NCBI GenBank assembly: GCA_003327435.1
Contig: QOQV01000008.1
Coordinates: forward strand, 62,001 to 126,000
Origin: Ignavibacteriota bacterium
GTDB lineage: Bacteria > Bacteroidota > Ignavibacteria > UBA10030 > BY39
Length of the DNA: 64,000 bases
Direction: 5' to 3'
Shown: one piece after another, positions 19,098 through 25,021 of the stretch
How the letters are laid out: every line of letters starts with the position of its first letter
How positions within the stretch are numbered: the stretch's first letter is position 1
Position numbers and translations under genes: made by a program
Notes under the pieces: generated by a model
What the model was told of the DNA's origin: nothing
Seen by the model: the letters and a program-made list of their open reading frames with translations, nothing else
Database searches by the model: none

Positions 19098-19679
19098 ATG
19101 GGAGAAAAAACCTTCTCACCAAATAATTGGGAACGCCTTGTTAGCGCAGATAGAGAAAGAATGCTACCTGTAGAATCTTTTATTGAACTATCCAAACCGC
19201 AAGCAAGCGAAATTTGGGCTGACATTGGTTGCGGACCTGGTTACTTTACACTACCAATTGCAGAAAGAGTAAAAAAAATTTATGCTATTGATATAAGCGA
19301 TGAAATGCTACAGGTTTGCAGAAACCGTGCCCTGGAAAAAAAGATAACAAACATTGAGTATGTAAAAATTAAGAATGAAAGGCTTCCATTTTCAAAACAG
19401 TTTTTTGATAAAATACTTTTAGTTAATGTCTATCATGAGTTAGAAGATAGCAAGAAAATAATTAATGAGTTGAAAAGGACAATCAAGTCCAATGGTCGAA
19501 TTTATTTAATCGATTGGAAGTATGAAGAAATGGAATTTGGACCACCACTTGAACACAGAATTCCACCTGATAAAGTTGTCGACGAATTTAAACAGAAAAA
19601 TATTTCATTGATTGAAATATCAGAAATCTATCGCTTTAATTATGTTTTAGTTTTTGGAAGAAGGGATGGAGATGAATGA
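19098..19679 (+). CDS. Class I SAM-dependent methyltransferase
   Basis: The 193-residue protein is a single Rossmann methyltransferase domain: motif I DIGCGPGYFTLPIAE, the acidic strand YAIDISDEML and a motif IV-like LLVNVYHELED. No extra domain indicates a substrate. It begins 7 bases after the PLP enzyme stop, and its own stop overlaps the ADP-ribosylglycohydrolase start. The substrate is unknown. Confidence 0.85.
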   Translation: MGEKTFSPNNWERLVSADRERMLPVESFIELSKPQASEIWADIGCGPGYFTLPIAERVKKIYAIDISDEMLQVCRNRALEKKITNIEYVKIKNERLPFSKQFFDKILLVNVYHELEDSKKIINELKRTIKSNGRIYLIDWKYEEMEFGPPLEHRIPPDKVVDEFKQKNISLIEISEIYRFNYVLVFGRRDGDE

Positions 19680-20610
19680 CCAACTTCTTGGTGGTTTATT
19701 TGGACTTTGTATCGGAGACGCGTTAGGAGTCCCATACGAGTTCACTGAGAGAAATACTTTAAGAAACAATCCCGCAAAGGATATGATTGGTTATGGTACA
19801 CACTTTCAACCTCCAGGTACCTGGTCAGATGATAGCTCGCTTACTTTTTGTCTTGCAGAATCACTTTGTTATGGTTTGAATTATAATGATATCGCTAAAA
19901 AGTTTTGTAGCTGGTTAAACGATGGTTATTGGACACCCCATGGCCAAATATTTGATATCGGGAAAACCACATTAAAAGCTATTAAAAGAATGGAAAGTGG
20001 AGTGGATCCACTTTTTGCTGGAAGTACTGGTGAATTAGATAATGGCAATGGTGCTTTAATGCGAATATTACCCATTGCTTTTTACTTGAAAAACCGTAAT
20101 TTAAATGATCAATTTAAAGTAACGCACAGCGTGTCAGATTTAACACACCGAACGCGACGTTCAGAGATAGCGTGTGGAATGTATATACAATTTGCAATTA
20201 ATTTGTTGAATGGTTATGATCTCCAAAGTTCTTACAATAAAATGAAAAATGTAACTAACCAATATTATTCTAAATCTGAGTATGAAAGAGAATTGTATCA
20301 TTTTGATAGAATTTTAAAATCAGACATTTATAAAATTCCTGAAAATGAAATTTATTCTGATGGATATGTTGTTCATACACTTGAAGCAAGTTTGTGGTGT
20401 GTTTTAAATAATAAATCTTATTCAGATACAGTTCTATCTGCAGTGAATTTAGGAGGAGATACAGATACAACAGCGTCTGTTGCTGGAGGTCTTGCAGGAA
20501 TATATTATGGATTTAAAGCAATTCCAAGTAAATGGATTGATAGAGTGGCAAGAAAAGAAGATATATTAAATTTAGCAGAAAGGTTTTATAAGGGTTTATC
20601 TGTAAAATGA
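19666..20610 (+). CDS. ADP-ribosylglycohydrolase (DraG/ARH family), intact metal site
   Basis: The protein is about 314 residues. Candidate starts are the ATGs at 19666 and 19672, both behind the GGAAGAAGGG stretch; a TTG at 19654 is less likely because family members begin close to the LLGGLFGLCIGDALGVP motif. The magnesium ligands of the family are present: WSDDSS near residue 54 and GGDTDTTAS near residue 265. These enzymes remove ADP-ribose from Arg, Ser or other acceptors, or cleave ADP-ribosyl compounds. No ADP-ribosyltransferase lies in the window. The stop overlaps the next gene by 4 bases. Confidence 0.9.
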   Translation: MEMNDQLLGGLFGLCIGDALGVPYEFTERNTLRNNPAKDMIGYGTHFQPPGTWSDDSSLTFCLAESLCYGLNYNDIAKKFCSWLNDGYWTPHGQIFDIGKTTLKAIKRMESGVDPLFAGSTGELDNGNGALMRILPIAFYLKNRNLNDQFKVTHSVSDLTHRTRRSEIACGMYIQFAINLLNGYDLQSSYNKMKNVTNQYYSKSEYERELYHFDRILKSDIYKIPENEIYSDGYVVHTLEASLWCVLNNKSYSDTVLSAVNLGGDTDTTASVAGGLAGIYYGFKAIPSKWIDRVARKEDILNLAERFYKGLSVK

Positions 20611-21410
20611 ATAACAAAAAAATATCAGAGAGCATTAAGGGATTATTTTTAGGACTGGGGGCAGGCGATTTGATTGGTGGACCAACAGCAATGAATATTA
20701 TCTTTGCCGAAAGCTTGCTAGCTTTAAAATATTTTGATTTCCAAGATTTAAAAAATAGATACATTGACTGGTTTATAAAAGATGGCTTTGATACTGGTTT
20801 TGTTACAGGAAAAGTATTAGAATTGTTATCTCAAGGTGCTGATGTCCAGGTTGCAGTTGAGCTGGTGCATAATAATCACTCGTATATGACAGGAGGATGT
20901 AATCCTGTACATCGGGCTTTTCCACTTGCAGCAGCTTCGTTTATCTCAGATGAAGCGATTGTAAAATGTGCAATTGCTCAGGCATCTCTTACGCATTACT
21001 CAAAAATTGCAGGCGATGTGGCGGCAGCAACTCTGGTTCTAGTAAGACAATTGATAAAAGGACAAAGTTGGGAGGAGGCAAAGCAAATTGCTGCTGAAAA
21101 TAGGATGGAAGAAACAAAATATGCATTATTGGATGTTGCGAAGAATAAAATAAGTTCATCTGGTTATGCACCCGATGTATTAAGAACTGCAATTTACTTT
21201 TTAGATCAATTTGAAAATTTTCAAGTTGCGCTTGAAAATTCAATAAAATTTGCCGGTGGTTCTAATTACTCTCCAATTTTAGTTGGAGCTATCGGAGGTG
21301 CCAGGTGGGGAGAAAAAGAAATTCCAGAAACATTATGGGAGAGGAATAAAAATCATTTAAAATTGATAGAAATTGCCGAAAAAATGCTCTTGAGCTGGCA
21401 GAAGATTTAA
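20607..21410 (+). CDS. ADP-ribosylglycohydrolase-like protein lacking metal ligands (probable pseudoenzyme)
   Basis: The 267-residue protein follows the previous gene with an ATGA overlap and shares its all-alpha layout: N-terminal IKGLFLGLGAGDLIGGP matches the paralog's LLGGLFGLCIGDALGVP, and the C-terminal AGGSNYSPILVGAIGGARWG matches GGDTDTTASVAGGLAGIYYG. The DraG-family ligands are missing: the first DD pair (WSDDSS in the paralog) has no counterpart, the region being shortened to GPTAMNIIFAESL, and GGDxDT is replaced by GGSNYS. I infer loss of hydrolase activity. It could be a partner or regulatory subunit of its neighbour, or act on another ligand. Confidence 0.8.
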   Translation: MNNKKISESIKGLFLGLGAGDLIGGPTAMNIIFAESLLALKYFDFQDLKNRYIDWFIKDGFDTGFVTGKVLELLSQGADVQVAVELVHNNHSYMTGGCNPVHRAFPLAAASFISDEAIVKCAIAQASLTHYSKIAGDVAAATLVLVRQLIKGQSWEEAKQIAAENRMEETKYALLDVAKNKISSSGYAPDVLRTAIYFLDQFENFQVALENSIKFAGGSNYSPILVGAIGGARWGEKEIPETLWERNKNHLKLIEIAEKMLLSWQKI

Positions 21411-21439: not shown

Positions 21440-21468
21440 TTGACTTTTACAAAATATTCTTTTATATT
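21440..21468 (+). promoter_or_regulatory. Sigma-70-type promoter of the DUF134 cluster
   Basis: TTGACT (21440-21445), a 17-base spacer and TATATT (21463-21468) make a near-consensus promoter. Transcription should begin near 21475, inside the palindrome at 21470-21491. The same hexamers with the same spacing recur ahead of the gene at 23045. Confidence 0.65.
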
Positions 21469-21469
21469 A

Positions 21470-21491
21470 ATTATGAGCATATGCTCATAAT
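21470..21491. promoter_or_regulatory. Perfect 22-bp palindromic operator
   Basis: ATTATGAGCAT (21470-21480) is followed directly by its reverse complement ATGCTCATAAT (21481-21491). It covers the predicted transcription start of the promoter at 21440-21468, where a bound repressor would block initiation. The first gene downstream encodes a helix-turn-helix protein, so autoregulation is the simplest model. Confidence 0.7.
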
Positions 21492-21517
21492 ATAGAAAAT
21501 AAATATAAGGTTAATAA

Positions 21518-21916
21518 TTGGCAAGACCACACAAATGTAGAAAAGTTGAACTTATTCCGGGGATTACATATTTCAAACCCCGCGGAATTCCAATGGATAT
21601 GTTGGAAGAAGTTAAATTATCTGTAGATGAATTTGAATCGCTTCGGCTGGCAGATTATAATGCCTTCTCCCATGAAGAATCTGCAGAGAGAATGAATATA
21701 TCGCGCGCTACATTCGGACGCATTGTTGAAAAAGCTCGTTATAAAATTGTTGATGCATTGTTAAACGGAAAAGCCATCATCATTGAAGGTGGTAATTATA
21801 AACCTTCTGACACTTTCGAATACAGATGTAGGCGTTGTCATAGAAAATGGCAATTTACTGTTGAGAGAAGAAAAAATGCGAATTGTCCACATTGTGAAAA
21901 AGAAAATATTACTTAA
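21518..21916 (+). CDS. DUF134 (UPF0251) helix-turn-helix protein
   Basis: The 132-residue protein starts at a TTG, fixed by the family's conserved opening MARPHKCRKVE; AAGG lies 7 bases upstream. A helix-turn-helix resembling sigma-factor region 4 spans about 35-85 (SHEESAERMNISRATFGRIVEKA). The C-terminal part is a four-cysteine zinc-ribbon-like element (CRRC...CPHC, about 104-127). DUF134 proteins are putative DNA-binding regulators commonly found beside NifX/NifB-type iron-molybdenum cofactor proteins, as here. It probably binds the palindrome at its own promoter, but that is untested. Confidence 0.9.
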   Translation: MARPHKCRKVELIPGITYFKPRGIPMDMLEEVKLSVDEFESLRLADYNAFSHEESAERMNISRATFGRIVEKARYKIVDALLNGKAIIIEGGNYKPSDTFEYRCRRCHRKWQFTVERRKNANCPHCEKENIT

Positions 21917-21986
21917 ATAAAATGATGTTTGGTTACAATAAATTTCTATTTATAATCTTAAATGAAATTATTCAAGGAGATAAAAA

Positions 21987-22214
21987 ATGCCTAATTTAAA
22001 TCAGACAGGACCATTTGGTCGGGGACCTCTAACAGGAAGACGTAGAGGTCGATGTGTAAACACTACCACAACGCAAACTACTCAATCAGAATTAAAACCA
22101 GATGAAACAAAAGGAACTCTATATAGAGTAGGACGTGGAGGAAGACCATATGGTGGCGGTAAAGGTTACTGCCATGGTGGTCCAAACCACAAAGAAAAAG
22201 ATGTGAAACAATAA
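21987..22214 (+). CDS. DUF5320-like small Gly/Arg-rich protein
   Basis: The 75-residue protein has AAGGAG seven bases ahead of the ATG. It opens with MPNLNQTGPFGRGPLTGRRR, the signature of DUF5320 proteins (M-P-x-x-x-x-T-G-P-x-G-x-G-P-x-T-G-R). Such proteins accompany DUF134 and NifX-like genes in many anaerobes. Two cysteines (RGRC and KGYCHGG) and neighbouring His could bind metal. The function of the family is not established. Confidence 0.85.
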   Translation: MPNLNQTGPFGRGPLTGRRRGRCVNTTTTQTTQSELKPDETKGTLYRVGRGGRPYGGGKGYCHGGPNHKEKDVKQ

Positions 22215-22302
22215 TTGACTTAAAAAAATTTGGGCGATAGGATAATTCCGATTTGCCCAAAAATCTATTAATTTAACAAGCAAAAATATGAAAGGATATA
22301 TT

Positions 22303-22716
22303 ATGGAAACAAAAAATATTAAAGTGGCTTTTGTTACAGACGATGGTAACACAATTAGCCAACATTTTGGTCGTGCAAGGTTTTATGAAGTTGTGACTAT
22401 TGAAGATGGCAAGATAACACATCGTGAACGTAGAGAGAAGGCTGGTCATCATACTTTCCATGGACAAGAAGAGCATGGGGAACATCATGGTCCCGGACAT
22501 GGTTTTGATGAGCATTCACAGGGTAAACATCGTATGATGGCTGATATTATCACAGATTGCCAGATGTTGGTTGCTCGTGGGATGGGTAACGGTGCATATC
22601 AGCACATGCTAAATGCGAATATTAAACCGATTATCACAAATATTCCGAAGATTGATGATGCTATTCAAGAAATAATTAAAGGTACGATAGTTAATTTTAC
22701 TGAGAAACTACACTGA
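22303..22716 (+). CDS. NifX/NifB-type dinitrogenase iron-molybdenum cofactor-binding protein with His-rich insert
   Basis: I choose the ATG at 22303 because AAAGGA lies at the right distance; an ATG at 22288 lacks a site. The 137-residue protein has the family's fold: VAFVTDDGNTISQHFGRARFYEVVTIEDGKI at the start (given here as the strand and the SQHFGRA loop) and ADIITDCQMLVARGMGNGAYQHM later. Members bind iron-sulfur or iron-molybdenum clusters. An insert near residues 45-75 holds nine histidines, much richer than in typical relatives, suggesting an added metal-binding loop. No nitrogenase genes are present, so the role is probably metal or cluster handling. Confidence 0.88.
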   Translation: METKNIKVAFVTDDGNTISQHFGRARFYEVVTIEDGKITHRERREKAGHHTFHGQEEHGEHHGPGHGFDEHSQGKHRMMADIITDCQMLVARGMGNGAYQHMLNANIKPIITNIPKIDDAIQEIIKGTIVNFTEKLH

Positions 22717-23044
22717 ACATTTTCAATCTTTTAAATTTAAAATAGAACAATCTCCCTTTTATTCTCTAACTTAACTGTTAAATTTTGTCTGGACTTTTAC
22801 AGAGTCAACTCCTGGAAGTGTATTAGTTATCGATTACTAATTTAGCTGTAACATATTGAGGAATAAGAAGATAAAGTGATTTTAAATTGCGCGTAAATTA
22901 TATTTAAGTATGAGAATAAAAAAAGTGAATTCGAAAATCCCCCTGGACTTGACTTTTAAAATCTTATATATTATATTTACAAAGAATCGGTATTTCTCCC
23001 CCCGATGCCCACATCCAATAACCATTTAACCTAAGGAGGTTAAT
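22717..23044. other. Intergenic region, 328 bases
   Basis: It holds a promoter for the T9SS cargo gene (22949-22977) and its untranslated leader, which includes a C-rich stretch (CTCCCCCCGATGCCC) ahead of the Shine-Dalgarno TAAGGAGGT. I see no gene, tRNA or terminator-like hairpin in the first 230 bases. Confidence 0.6.
22949..22977 (+). promoter_or_regulatory. Sigma-70-type promoter of the T9SS cargo gene
   Basis: TTGACT (22949-22954), a 17-base spacer and TATATT (22972-22977). Transcription should start near 22984, giving a leader of about 60 bases that ends in the strong ribosome site TAAGGAGG. Confidence 0.6.
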
Positions 23045-25021
23045 ATGAGTAAATTTAACATTAACTTAATTATTTTATTCTTTTTAGTTTCGTCTGTTGT
23101 TTTTGCACAAACCGTTCCATTACCACCTGAAAATCTAAATGTAACTGCTACAGTGGAAGGTTATGCAAAACTTATGTGGGATTATCCAAATATAATGGGG
23201 ATCAAGTTTAAGATTTACAAATCGGTTGATGATTCCCCATTCGCTCCATTACCAGCTGTTGTGCAGATGAAGAATTTCATGGATATGAATGTACCAGCTG
23301 GTCACGTCTATCGGTATTATGTTACAGCTTTCAATTCTTTTGGAGAAAGTCAGCCGAGTAACGATGTAACCTTTATTCCAGGTCAGACACCTCCACCACC
23401 AATGTTTCGAAAAGGTTTTATTCAAGGAAACATTGTGGATGATAGCACCGGCTTACCTATCAAAGGAGTACGTGTCAGATTCTATACACCTGATGGGTTA
23501 CTTTATTTTCGTGAAGCATGTACAGATACATTCGGTAACTATTTCGCTCCGCTTGACTCAGGCACATATTTAATTTATGCTACAAAGTGGTGCTATGTTC
23601 CCGAATGGTACGATGATGTTTTAACTCGTGAAGAAGCAACTCCAGTAACAATTGTTCCGAATGATACCACTACTGCAAATTTTGATCTAAGGCATACACT
23701 TTATCCTACTACTCCAGTACTGGTAAGTGTTAGCGGTACTGTGATTGATAGTGTAACCGGTCTGCCTATAAAAGATGCACTTGTTGTATTTCTCAGGACT
23801 AACAGGCAAATGAATATGATGATGTATCAAAATGGTACATTAATGGGTAGTAGAGATGAGATGTTTTTTGTACCACCATTTGGAACACTCATTGGAGTCG
23901 TAGGTAAAGCTAAAACTGATAATGATGGTAACTATACTGTGCTTCTGCAGAAAAACATTACCTACATTGCGGTTGCTGTAAAGATTGGTTATATACCGGA
24001 GTTTTATAATAATAAAAGCTCACCACTTGACGCTGATAGATTATTTATCGTTTCCGATACTTCTGGGATTAATTTTGATTTAATTCAAAATCCAAATGTA
24101 CAGAACAGTTTGAGTGGTATTGTAAAAGATGTAGATGGAATAGGTGTGTTATCGAGAGTGGTTCTATTTCAGAAAACTCCAAAAGGAATTCATCCGGTGC
24201 GCTTTACTGTAACTGATACAACAGGTAATTACTATTTCAATTATCTCTACTCAGGTTATTATTATGCAAAAGCAATTCCGTTTACACTTTATGCACCGGC
24301 ATGGTATGATGCCAATCCAGATAGTTGTGGTGTCTTCTGCTGGGTAAATGCCGATAGTTTTCTTGTGCAGGGCGCAACGGAAAATATTAATATTTGTGTG
24401 GTTCCATATCAACCTGCAGGTTTTGCTTCTATAAGCGGAACTGTTTCAGCAACCAGCAAAGTAGCAGGTGTCCAATCAGCAACAGTTTATGTTGTAGATG
24501 TAGTAAGTAAGAAAATTGCTGGATATGATATAACTGAAGAAGATGGCTCATTTTCAATAAATTATTTGGCACCAGGGACTTATCAGATAATTGCAGATAA
24601 GGAAGGTTATACAATAGATAGTAAAACTTATGAGCTTAACGCAACCAACAACTATAAAGTTACTGATGCTGAATTGCTAATTTCTGGAACCGCACTGGGT
24701 ATTGGTGAAGAGAAAGAAATTCCTGCTCGATATTATTTATCTCAAAATTATCCCAATCCATTTAATCCAACAACGGAAATTAAATTTGGCATACCAGCAT
24801 TAAGCAAAGTAACTTTGAGTATTTATAACTTGCTTGGACAACGGGTTAATGTACTGTTAAGTACCGAACTTTCTGGAGGTAATTATTCAGTTAGTTGGGA
24901 TGGAACTGATACCTATGGAAGAGCACTGAGTAGTGGATTATATTTTTACAAACTCGATGCCAGTTCAATTAATGACAATGGAAAATTTACAAGTGTAAGG
25001 AAAATGCTACTTGTGAGATAG
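23045..25021 (+). CDS. T9SS-secreted multidomain protein (FnIII, carboxypeptidase-regulatory-like repeats, type A sorting domain)
   Basis: The 658-residue protein has a signal peptide (about 1-22, ending VVFA-Q) and a fibronectin type III domain (about 28-115). At least three and probably four carboxypeptidase-regulatory-like Ig domains follow, recognisable by ISGTVxD...TGLPIKGVRV, DxxGNYxxxLxxGTY repeats. The final 90 residues are a T9SS type A sorting domain, opening YYLSQNYPNPFNPTTEI and ending SGLYFYKLDA...VRKMLLVR. The protein should cross the outer membrane by the type IX system, whose SprA subunit is encoded at 54918-61859, and be anchored or released. No catalytic domain is seen; a surface adhesive or structural role is likely. 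Confidence 0.93.
   Translation: MSKFNINLIILFFLVSSVVFAQTVPLPPENLNVTATVEGYAKLMWDYPNIMGIKFKIYKSVDDSPFAPLPAVVQMKNFMDMNVPAGHVYRYYVTAFNSFGESQPSNDVTFIPGQTPPPPMFRKGFIQGNIVDDSTGLPIKGVRVRFYTPDGLLYFREACTDTFGNYFAPLDSGTYLIYATKWCYVPEWYDDVLTREEATPVTIVPNDTTTANFDLRHTLYPTTPVLVSVSGTVIDSVTGLPIKDALVVFLRTNRQMNMMMYQNGTLMGSRDEMFFVPPFGTLIGVVGKAKTDNDGNYTVLLQKNITYIAVAVKIGYIPEFYNNKSSPLDADRLFIVSDTSGINFDLIQNPNVQNSLSGIVKDVDGIGVLSRVVLFQKTPKGIHPVRFTVTDTTGNYYFNYLYSGYYYAKAIPFTLYAPAWYDANPDSCGVFCWVNADSFLVQGATENINICVVPYQPAGFASISGTVSATSKVAGVQSATVYVVDVVSKKIAGYDITEEDGSFSINYLAPGTYQIIADKEGYTIDSKTYELNATNNYKVTDAELLISGTALGIGEEKEIPARYYLSQNYPNPFNPTTEIKFGIPALSKVTLSIYNLLGQRVNVLLSTELSGGNYSVSWDGTDTYGRALSSGLYFYKLDASSINDNGKFTSVRKMLLVR

Follow-up and report, generated by a model that had tools for sequence, protein, structure and literature searches.

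A Conserved Palindrome at DUF134 Promoters, Probable Operator of a Regulator Family Linked to NifX-like Genes

A 22-bp perfect palindrome at the head of a small DUF134/DUF5320/NifX-like gene cluster is very probably (probability of about 0.85, judged from sequence comparison) the operator of the DUF134 protein encoded directly behind it. We favor this reading because the palindrome accompanies the gene across genomes, lies on its promoter, is dyad-symmetric, and covaries with the recognition helix of the protein. Autoregulation by DUF134, as proposed in a preliminary description of this DNA, is strongly supported: a helix-turn-helix (HTH) protein is encoded under the operator, and the operator is conserved with the regulator gene (123/139 distinct genes), in the same class and across phyla. 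Most simply, DUF134 would be the autorepressor of the NifX-like operon.

The palindrome and its operon

The palindrome, ATTATGAGCATATGCTCATAAT, occupies positions 21470-21491 of the window (the whole 64-kb stretch of DNA that was analyzed) and contains the conserved 20-bp operator core TTATGAGCATATGCTCATAA at 21471-21490. The window holds no other perfect palindrome of at least 18 bp, and 30 first-order Markov sequences of its length yielded a total of one palindrome of at least 22 bp. The 16-bp core has a single exact match in the 2.63-Mb genome; the eight other matches each carry exactly three mismatches, compared with five matches for the reversed pattern.

On the forward strand, a −35 box TTGACT (21440-21445) and a −10 box TATATT (21463-21468), separated by a 17-bp spacer, together match the promoter consensus at 10/12 positions, in a stretch where promoter-like matches are near background (12 vs. 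8.4 expected). A single base (21469) lies between the −10 box and the palindrome, and the inferred +1, at ~21475, falls inside it. This is the arrangement set out in the preliminary description, namely, a perfect 22-bp palindrome at the cluster start, one base past a near-consensus −10 box and over the predicted +1. The same TTGACT-17-TATATT combination, with both boxes identical to those of the DUF134 promoter, recurs without a palindrome at 22949-22977, ahead of a gene at 23045 for a secreted carboxypeptidase-regulatory-like protein. Two ADP-ribosylglycohydrolase genes lie in tandem and overlap at 19654-21410; the second matches only positions 52-286 of the 287-position profile and is perhaps missing N-terminal elements.

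The 3′ end of the palindrome is 26 bp upstream of the TTG start codon of the DUF134 gene (21518-21916, forward strand), which encodes a 132-residue protein that is a clear member of PF02001 (90.7 bits against a cut-off of 27, E = 9e-26), with additional weak Pfam matches to a Zn-ribbon and sigma-4. Two further genes on the same strand are presumed to share its transcript: a 75-residue DUF5320 protein (PF17253, E = 4.5e-9; 21987-22214) and a 142-residue NifX/ORP-like protein (PF02579, Nitro_FeMo-Co, E = 1.3e-14; 22288-22716). The latter carries a His-rich insertion of ~30 residues (HHTFHGQEEHGEHHGPGHGF...), whose composition suggests transition-metal binding.

The first gene had been described as encoding an HTH plus zinc-ribbon protein. 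DUF134 consists of a sigma-region-4/DeoR-like HTH, formed in the predicted structure by helices 52-58 and 63-83 (pLDDT ~95 there), followed by a C-terminal zinc-ribbon-like Cys4; the modeled recognition helix, residues 63-83, is encoded at 21704-21766 on the forward strand. The HTH superposes on DeoR:operator and sigma-4 structures with an rmsd of ~0.7-0.9 Å over 39-50 columns. Fold searches with this small domain gave a Foldseek E-value of 0.08 at best, and a structure search found no solved DUF134 structure, its best match (E = 0.05) being DeoR. The likeness to DeoR/SorC-type proteins and sigma region 4 lies in the superposable HTH; DUF134 differs in having no sugar-binding domain, in not being a sigma factor, and in possessing its own N-terminal strand region and Cys4 tail.

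Conservation, specificity, and promoter geometry of the site

We scored 143 DUF134 loci with a symmetric weight matrix, passing sites above the 99% null within 200 bp upstream of the gene. These loci combine 63 from the class and family of the window, leaving out class hits below the Pfam cut-off and one truncated hit (genome G124), with 80 found by searching GTDB genomes across phyla with a DUF134 alignment, a scan that favors relatives of the query; loci superseded by longer stretches were dropped. Four loci are common to both sets, giving 139 distinct ones; the duplicates are included in the 143-row counts of promoter geometry, gene neighbors, ribbon, dyad, and tree, and removed from the residue/base coupling counts. 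A TTATGAGCATATGCTCATAA-like site passed ahead of 123 of the 139 distinct genes (127/143 loci), that is, 59/63 in the class and family set, where most upstream regions hold the site or a symmetric variant of it, and 68/80 in the cross-phylum set. By a simpler measure, 65 of these 80 loci have a 20-mer with at most five mismatches to the consensus in the 150 bp upstream, compared with 3 of 1600 control stretches. The scan reached Desulfobacterota, Planctomycetota, Omnitrophota, Spirochaetota, Zixibacteria, Verrucomicrobia, Acidobacteria, Hermodarchaeota, and others. The palindrome therefore stands ahead of other DUF134 clusters, within the class and across phyla, and not ahead of unrelated genes only, the outcome on which the preliminary description had staked its proposal.

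At 16 of the 143 loci no site passed within 200 bp, and four of these, all in the class (L055, L057, L058, and L066), are explained by a NifX-like gene that precedes DUF134: the site lies at or just ahead of the NifX-like open frame, with 2, 7 (weak), 3, and 2 mismatches, respectively. Of 197 class genomes, 59 gave a DUF134 hit (over the Pfam cut-off in 50), as did 90/119 of the Hermodarchaeota phylum and 166/249 of the phylum of Desulforamulus (Bacillota). Among 29 and 30 loci sampled from the latter two phyla, mostly best-scoring matches, a site with at most five mismatches was present in only 7/29 and 8/30, respectively. By these counts, the motif is near-universal in the class of the window and frequent in the relatives reached by the scan; in many others, it is diverged, displaced, or missing. 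Four loci from one family of the class (L009, L011, L014, and L015) carry two copies of the motif (GAACATATGT) ~35 bp apart upstream of DUF134, which suggests a double operator.

The site is also specific. Across the 197 class genomes, all 22 sites with zero or one mismatch abut DUF134 genes. At up to two mismatches there are 34 sites (counted from the listing), 33 of them in DUF134-bearing genomes: 31 are directly upstream of DUF134, two lead operons in which a NifX-like gene comes before DUF134, and one is in G148, a genome without detected DUF134. An operator-like palindrome with two mismatches in a genome without detected DUF134 (L082, 1501-1520) is possibly a relic. At up to three mismatches, the pattern occurs in 65 genomes vs. 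eight for the reversed pattern, and almost every site not at DUF134 has three mismatches. Five such sites were inspected: three lie inside coding sequence, and two overlap or adjoin ArsR-like genes (so named from sequence), where the palindromes read ATATGAG(C/T)ATAT(A/G)CTCATAT (L250 and L251, positions 1001-1020). Given the mismatch level and the coding location of three of the five, we make no claim of a wider regulon beyond the operon.

The site also follows the promoter. Close to the 127 operators, the word TTGAC was counted 83 times, compared with four for the reversed word CAGTT, and the positions of TTGAC peak at 31, 25, and 8 bases before the site. It stands at an assignable distance in 79 of the 127, and among these promoters, with starts inferred from sequence, the +1 falls inside the site in 49, another 28 have the site between −35 and +1, and neither holds in two, so that the site overlaps the core promoter in 77/79. 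A repressor operator has this layout, and it is from this geometry that we infer repression rather than activation.

Dyad symmetry and the recognition helix

At several positions of the half-site, a base change is accompanied by the complementary change in its mirror base, as is expected for a symmetric protein dimer. Half-site base 7 is altered in both arms of 19 sites, 18 of which remain complementary (3.3 expected), and base 5 in both arms of 18 sites, all of them complementary (8.7 expected). When all 1000 pairs of operator base and protein column (10 half-site bases × 100 columns) were ranked, the top two were base 7/residue 67 and base 5/residue 68, and these two residues, G67 and R68 in the window protein, are neighbors on the modeled recognition helix. 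All 17 distinct proteins with Asn68 have T on both arms at base 5; T/T occurs there in none of 106 with Arg68, six of which have T on one arm. At base 7, G/G accompanies Gly67 in 96 of 98 distinct proteins, and A/A replaces it in 16 of 17 with Ser67 or Thr67. The exceptions to the residue-67 rule are Gln67 (three of four keep G) and Ala67 (two of three).

The archaeal and Bacillota loci played no part in finding this rule. They gave 16 held-out sites, 15 with at most five mismatches and one with six; residue 67 is never Gly in their proteins, and no half-site has G at base 7, though the search consensus had G. On the best DUF134 tree, Asn68 and residue 67 require six changes each; the tree is poorly resolved, with one contrast only on well-supported branches, and so does not establish that the coupled changes arose independently. 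If the residue-to-base code is true, an R68N replacement would shift preference to TTATTAGC half-sites, and G67S or G67T to TTATGAAC half-sites.

Mode of control and alternative explanations

In the mechanism that we propose, a DUF134 dimer would place one recognition helix in each 10-bp half-site, cover the −10/+1 region, and block RNA polymerase, thereby repressing its own operon. That operon comprises here DUF134, DUF5320, and the NifX-like cofactor-binding protein, presumably joined elsewhere, in many cases, by Mrp/NBP35- and ferredoxin-ParA-type ATPases. With low confidence, the state of a metal cluster, detected by way of the ribbon and/or the NifX-like partner, might relieve this repression. 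The metal response, also part of the preliminary description, is a fair hypothesis drawn from gene neighbors, not a result.

Those neighbors were counted on the same strand with one profile per family built here; the profiles partly overlap, and examples were checked by Pfam. A NifX-like gene is near DUF134 in 104/143 loci, a ferredoxin-ParA-like gene in 42/143, an Mrp/NBP35-like gene in 36/143, and a DUF5320-like gene in 16/143. In one locus of the order of the window (L054; G130:C99:56499-60780), DUF134, a Cys-rich linker, and a NifX/Nitro_FeMo-Co domain form a single 285-residue protein, with its own symmetric operator variant, TTATGCGCGTATGCGCATAA, upstream; its NifX domain has a His-rich loop similar to that of the window protein. 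L164 and L129 at first seemed to hold DUF134-NifX and DUF134-ATPase fusions as well, but the added parts begin at offsets from the DUF134 start that are not multiples of three and are thus out of frame with it, which leaves L054 as the one fusion retained. The NifX-like, Mrp/NBP35, and ferredoxin-ParA types adjoining many DUF134 genes are also those of the orange protein (ORP) operons of Desulfovibrio, where similar proteins are described as the ORP complex (PMC6345978). The same account places the D. vulgaris orp operons under a sigma54 promoter (PMC6345978), from which the window operon differs in its sigma70-like promoter with a DUF134 site.

Could another regulator bind the palindrome? ArsR-type operators resemble it in size and base make-up, as the two three-mismatch sites at ArsR-like genes illustrate, and this likeness makes cross-talk between the two kinds of operator conceivable. 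Control of the DUF134 operon by an ArsR/SmtB-type metal sensor is nonetheless improbable: sites with at most two mismatches are confined to DUF134-bearing genomes, with one exception in 34, and the operator bases change with DUF134's own recognition helix. ArsR/SmtB proteins differ from DUF134 in fold, there is no coupling to an ArsR protein at DUF134 loci, and Pfam found no ArsR domain in the window operon, where it matched DUF134 (with the weak Zn-ribbon and sigma-4 hits), DUF5320, and Nitro_FeMo-Co. Still more remote is an RNA hairpin acting in leader stability, attenuation, or translation control. An RNA copy of a perfect palindrome can fold on itself, the window +1 is within the palindrome, and folding of the rest of the leader is weak (z = −1.6). 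However, the inferred +1 is downstream of the site in the 28/79 promoters noted above, leaving those sites untranscribed, the central CATATG, which would form the loop, is conserved, and the site is coupled to HTH residues of DUF134. The many sites upstream of the inferred +1 led us to reject the hairpin.

A more serious question is what DUF134 does once bound. It may activate, or it may be a constitutive, homeostatic autorepressor without a ligand, and we regard this pair of options as unlikely but deserving real weight. The CxxC...CxxC tail of the Cys4 ribbon is present in 114 of 143 members and absent in 29, so that no metal-binding site common to all DUF134 members was found; Cys4-type ribbons are often structural. 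Since 24 of the 29 ribbon-less members keep the operator, the ribbon is dispensable for having one, and short DUF134 forms consist of little beyond the HTH, both of which would suit a protein that needs no ligand. Against activation stands the overlap of the operator with the −10/+1 region, which favors repression; against a ligand-free repressor stand the linkage to NifX-like proteins and the one fusion, which suggest a ligand. An autorepressor DUF134 thus continues to be the reading that we prefer.

COG1342 (DUF134/UPF0251) is annotated as a predicted DNA-binding protein, and a literature search with the DUF134/UPF0251 names and the motif letters found no operator, target, direction of control, or role. 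A wider picture can be drawn tentatively, at somewhat less than even odds: DUF134 may be an ancient, mostly one-operator family of bacterial and archaeal regulators through which NifX/ORP-type metal-cluster genes respond to the cluster itself. The NifX-like protein, fused to DUF134 in one relative, would then be the sensor or co-repressor, and helix positions 67 and 68 would carry a readable residue-to-base code. The present analysis turns DUF134, for which we found no published role, into a directly testable regulator family through its defined operator, its promoter layout, and a recognition code of two residues, and it offers a handle on how anaerobes may control their NifX/ORP-type metal-cofactor genes.
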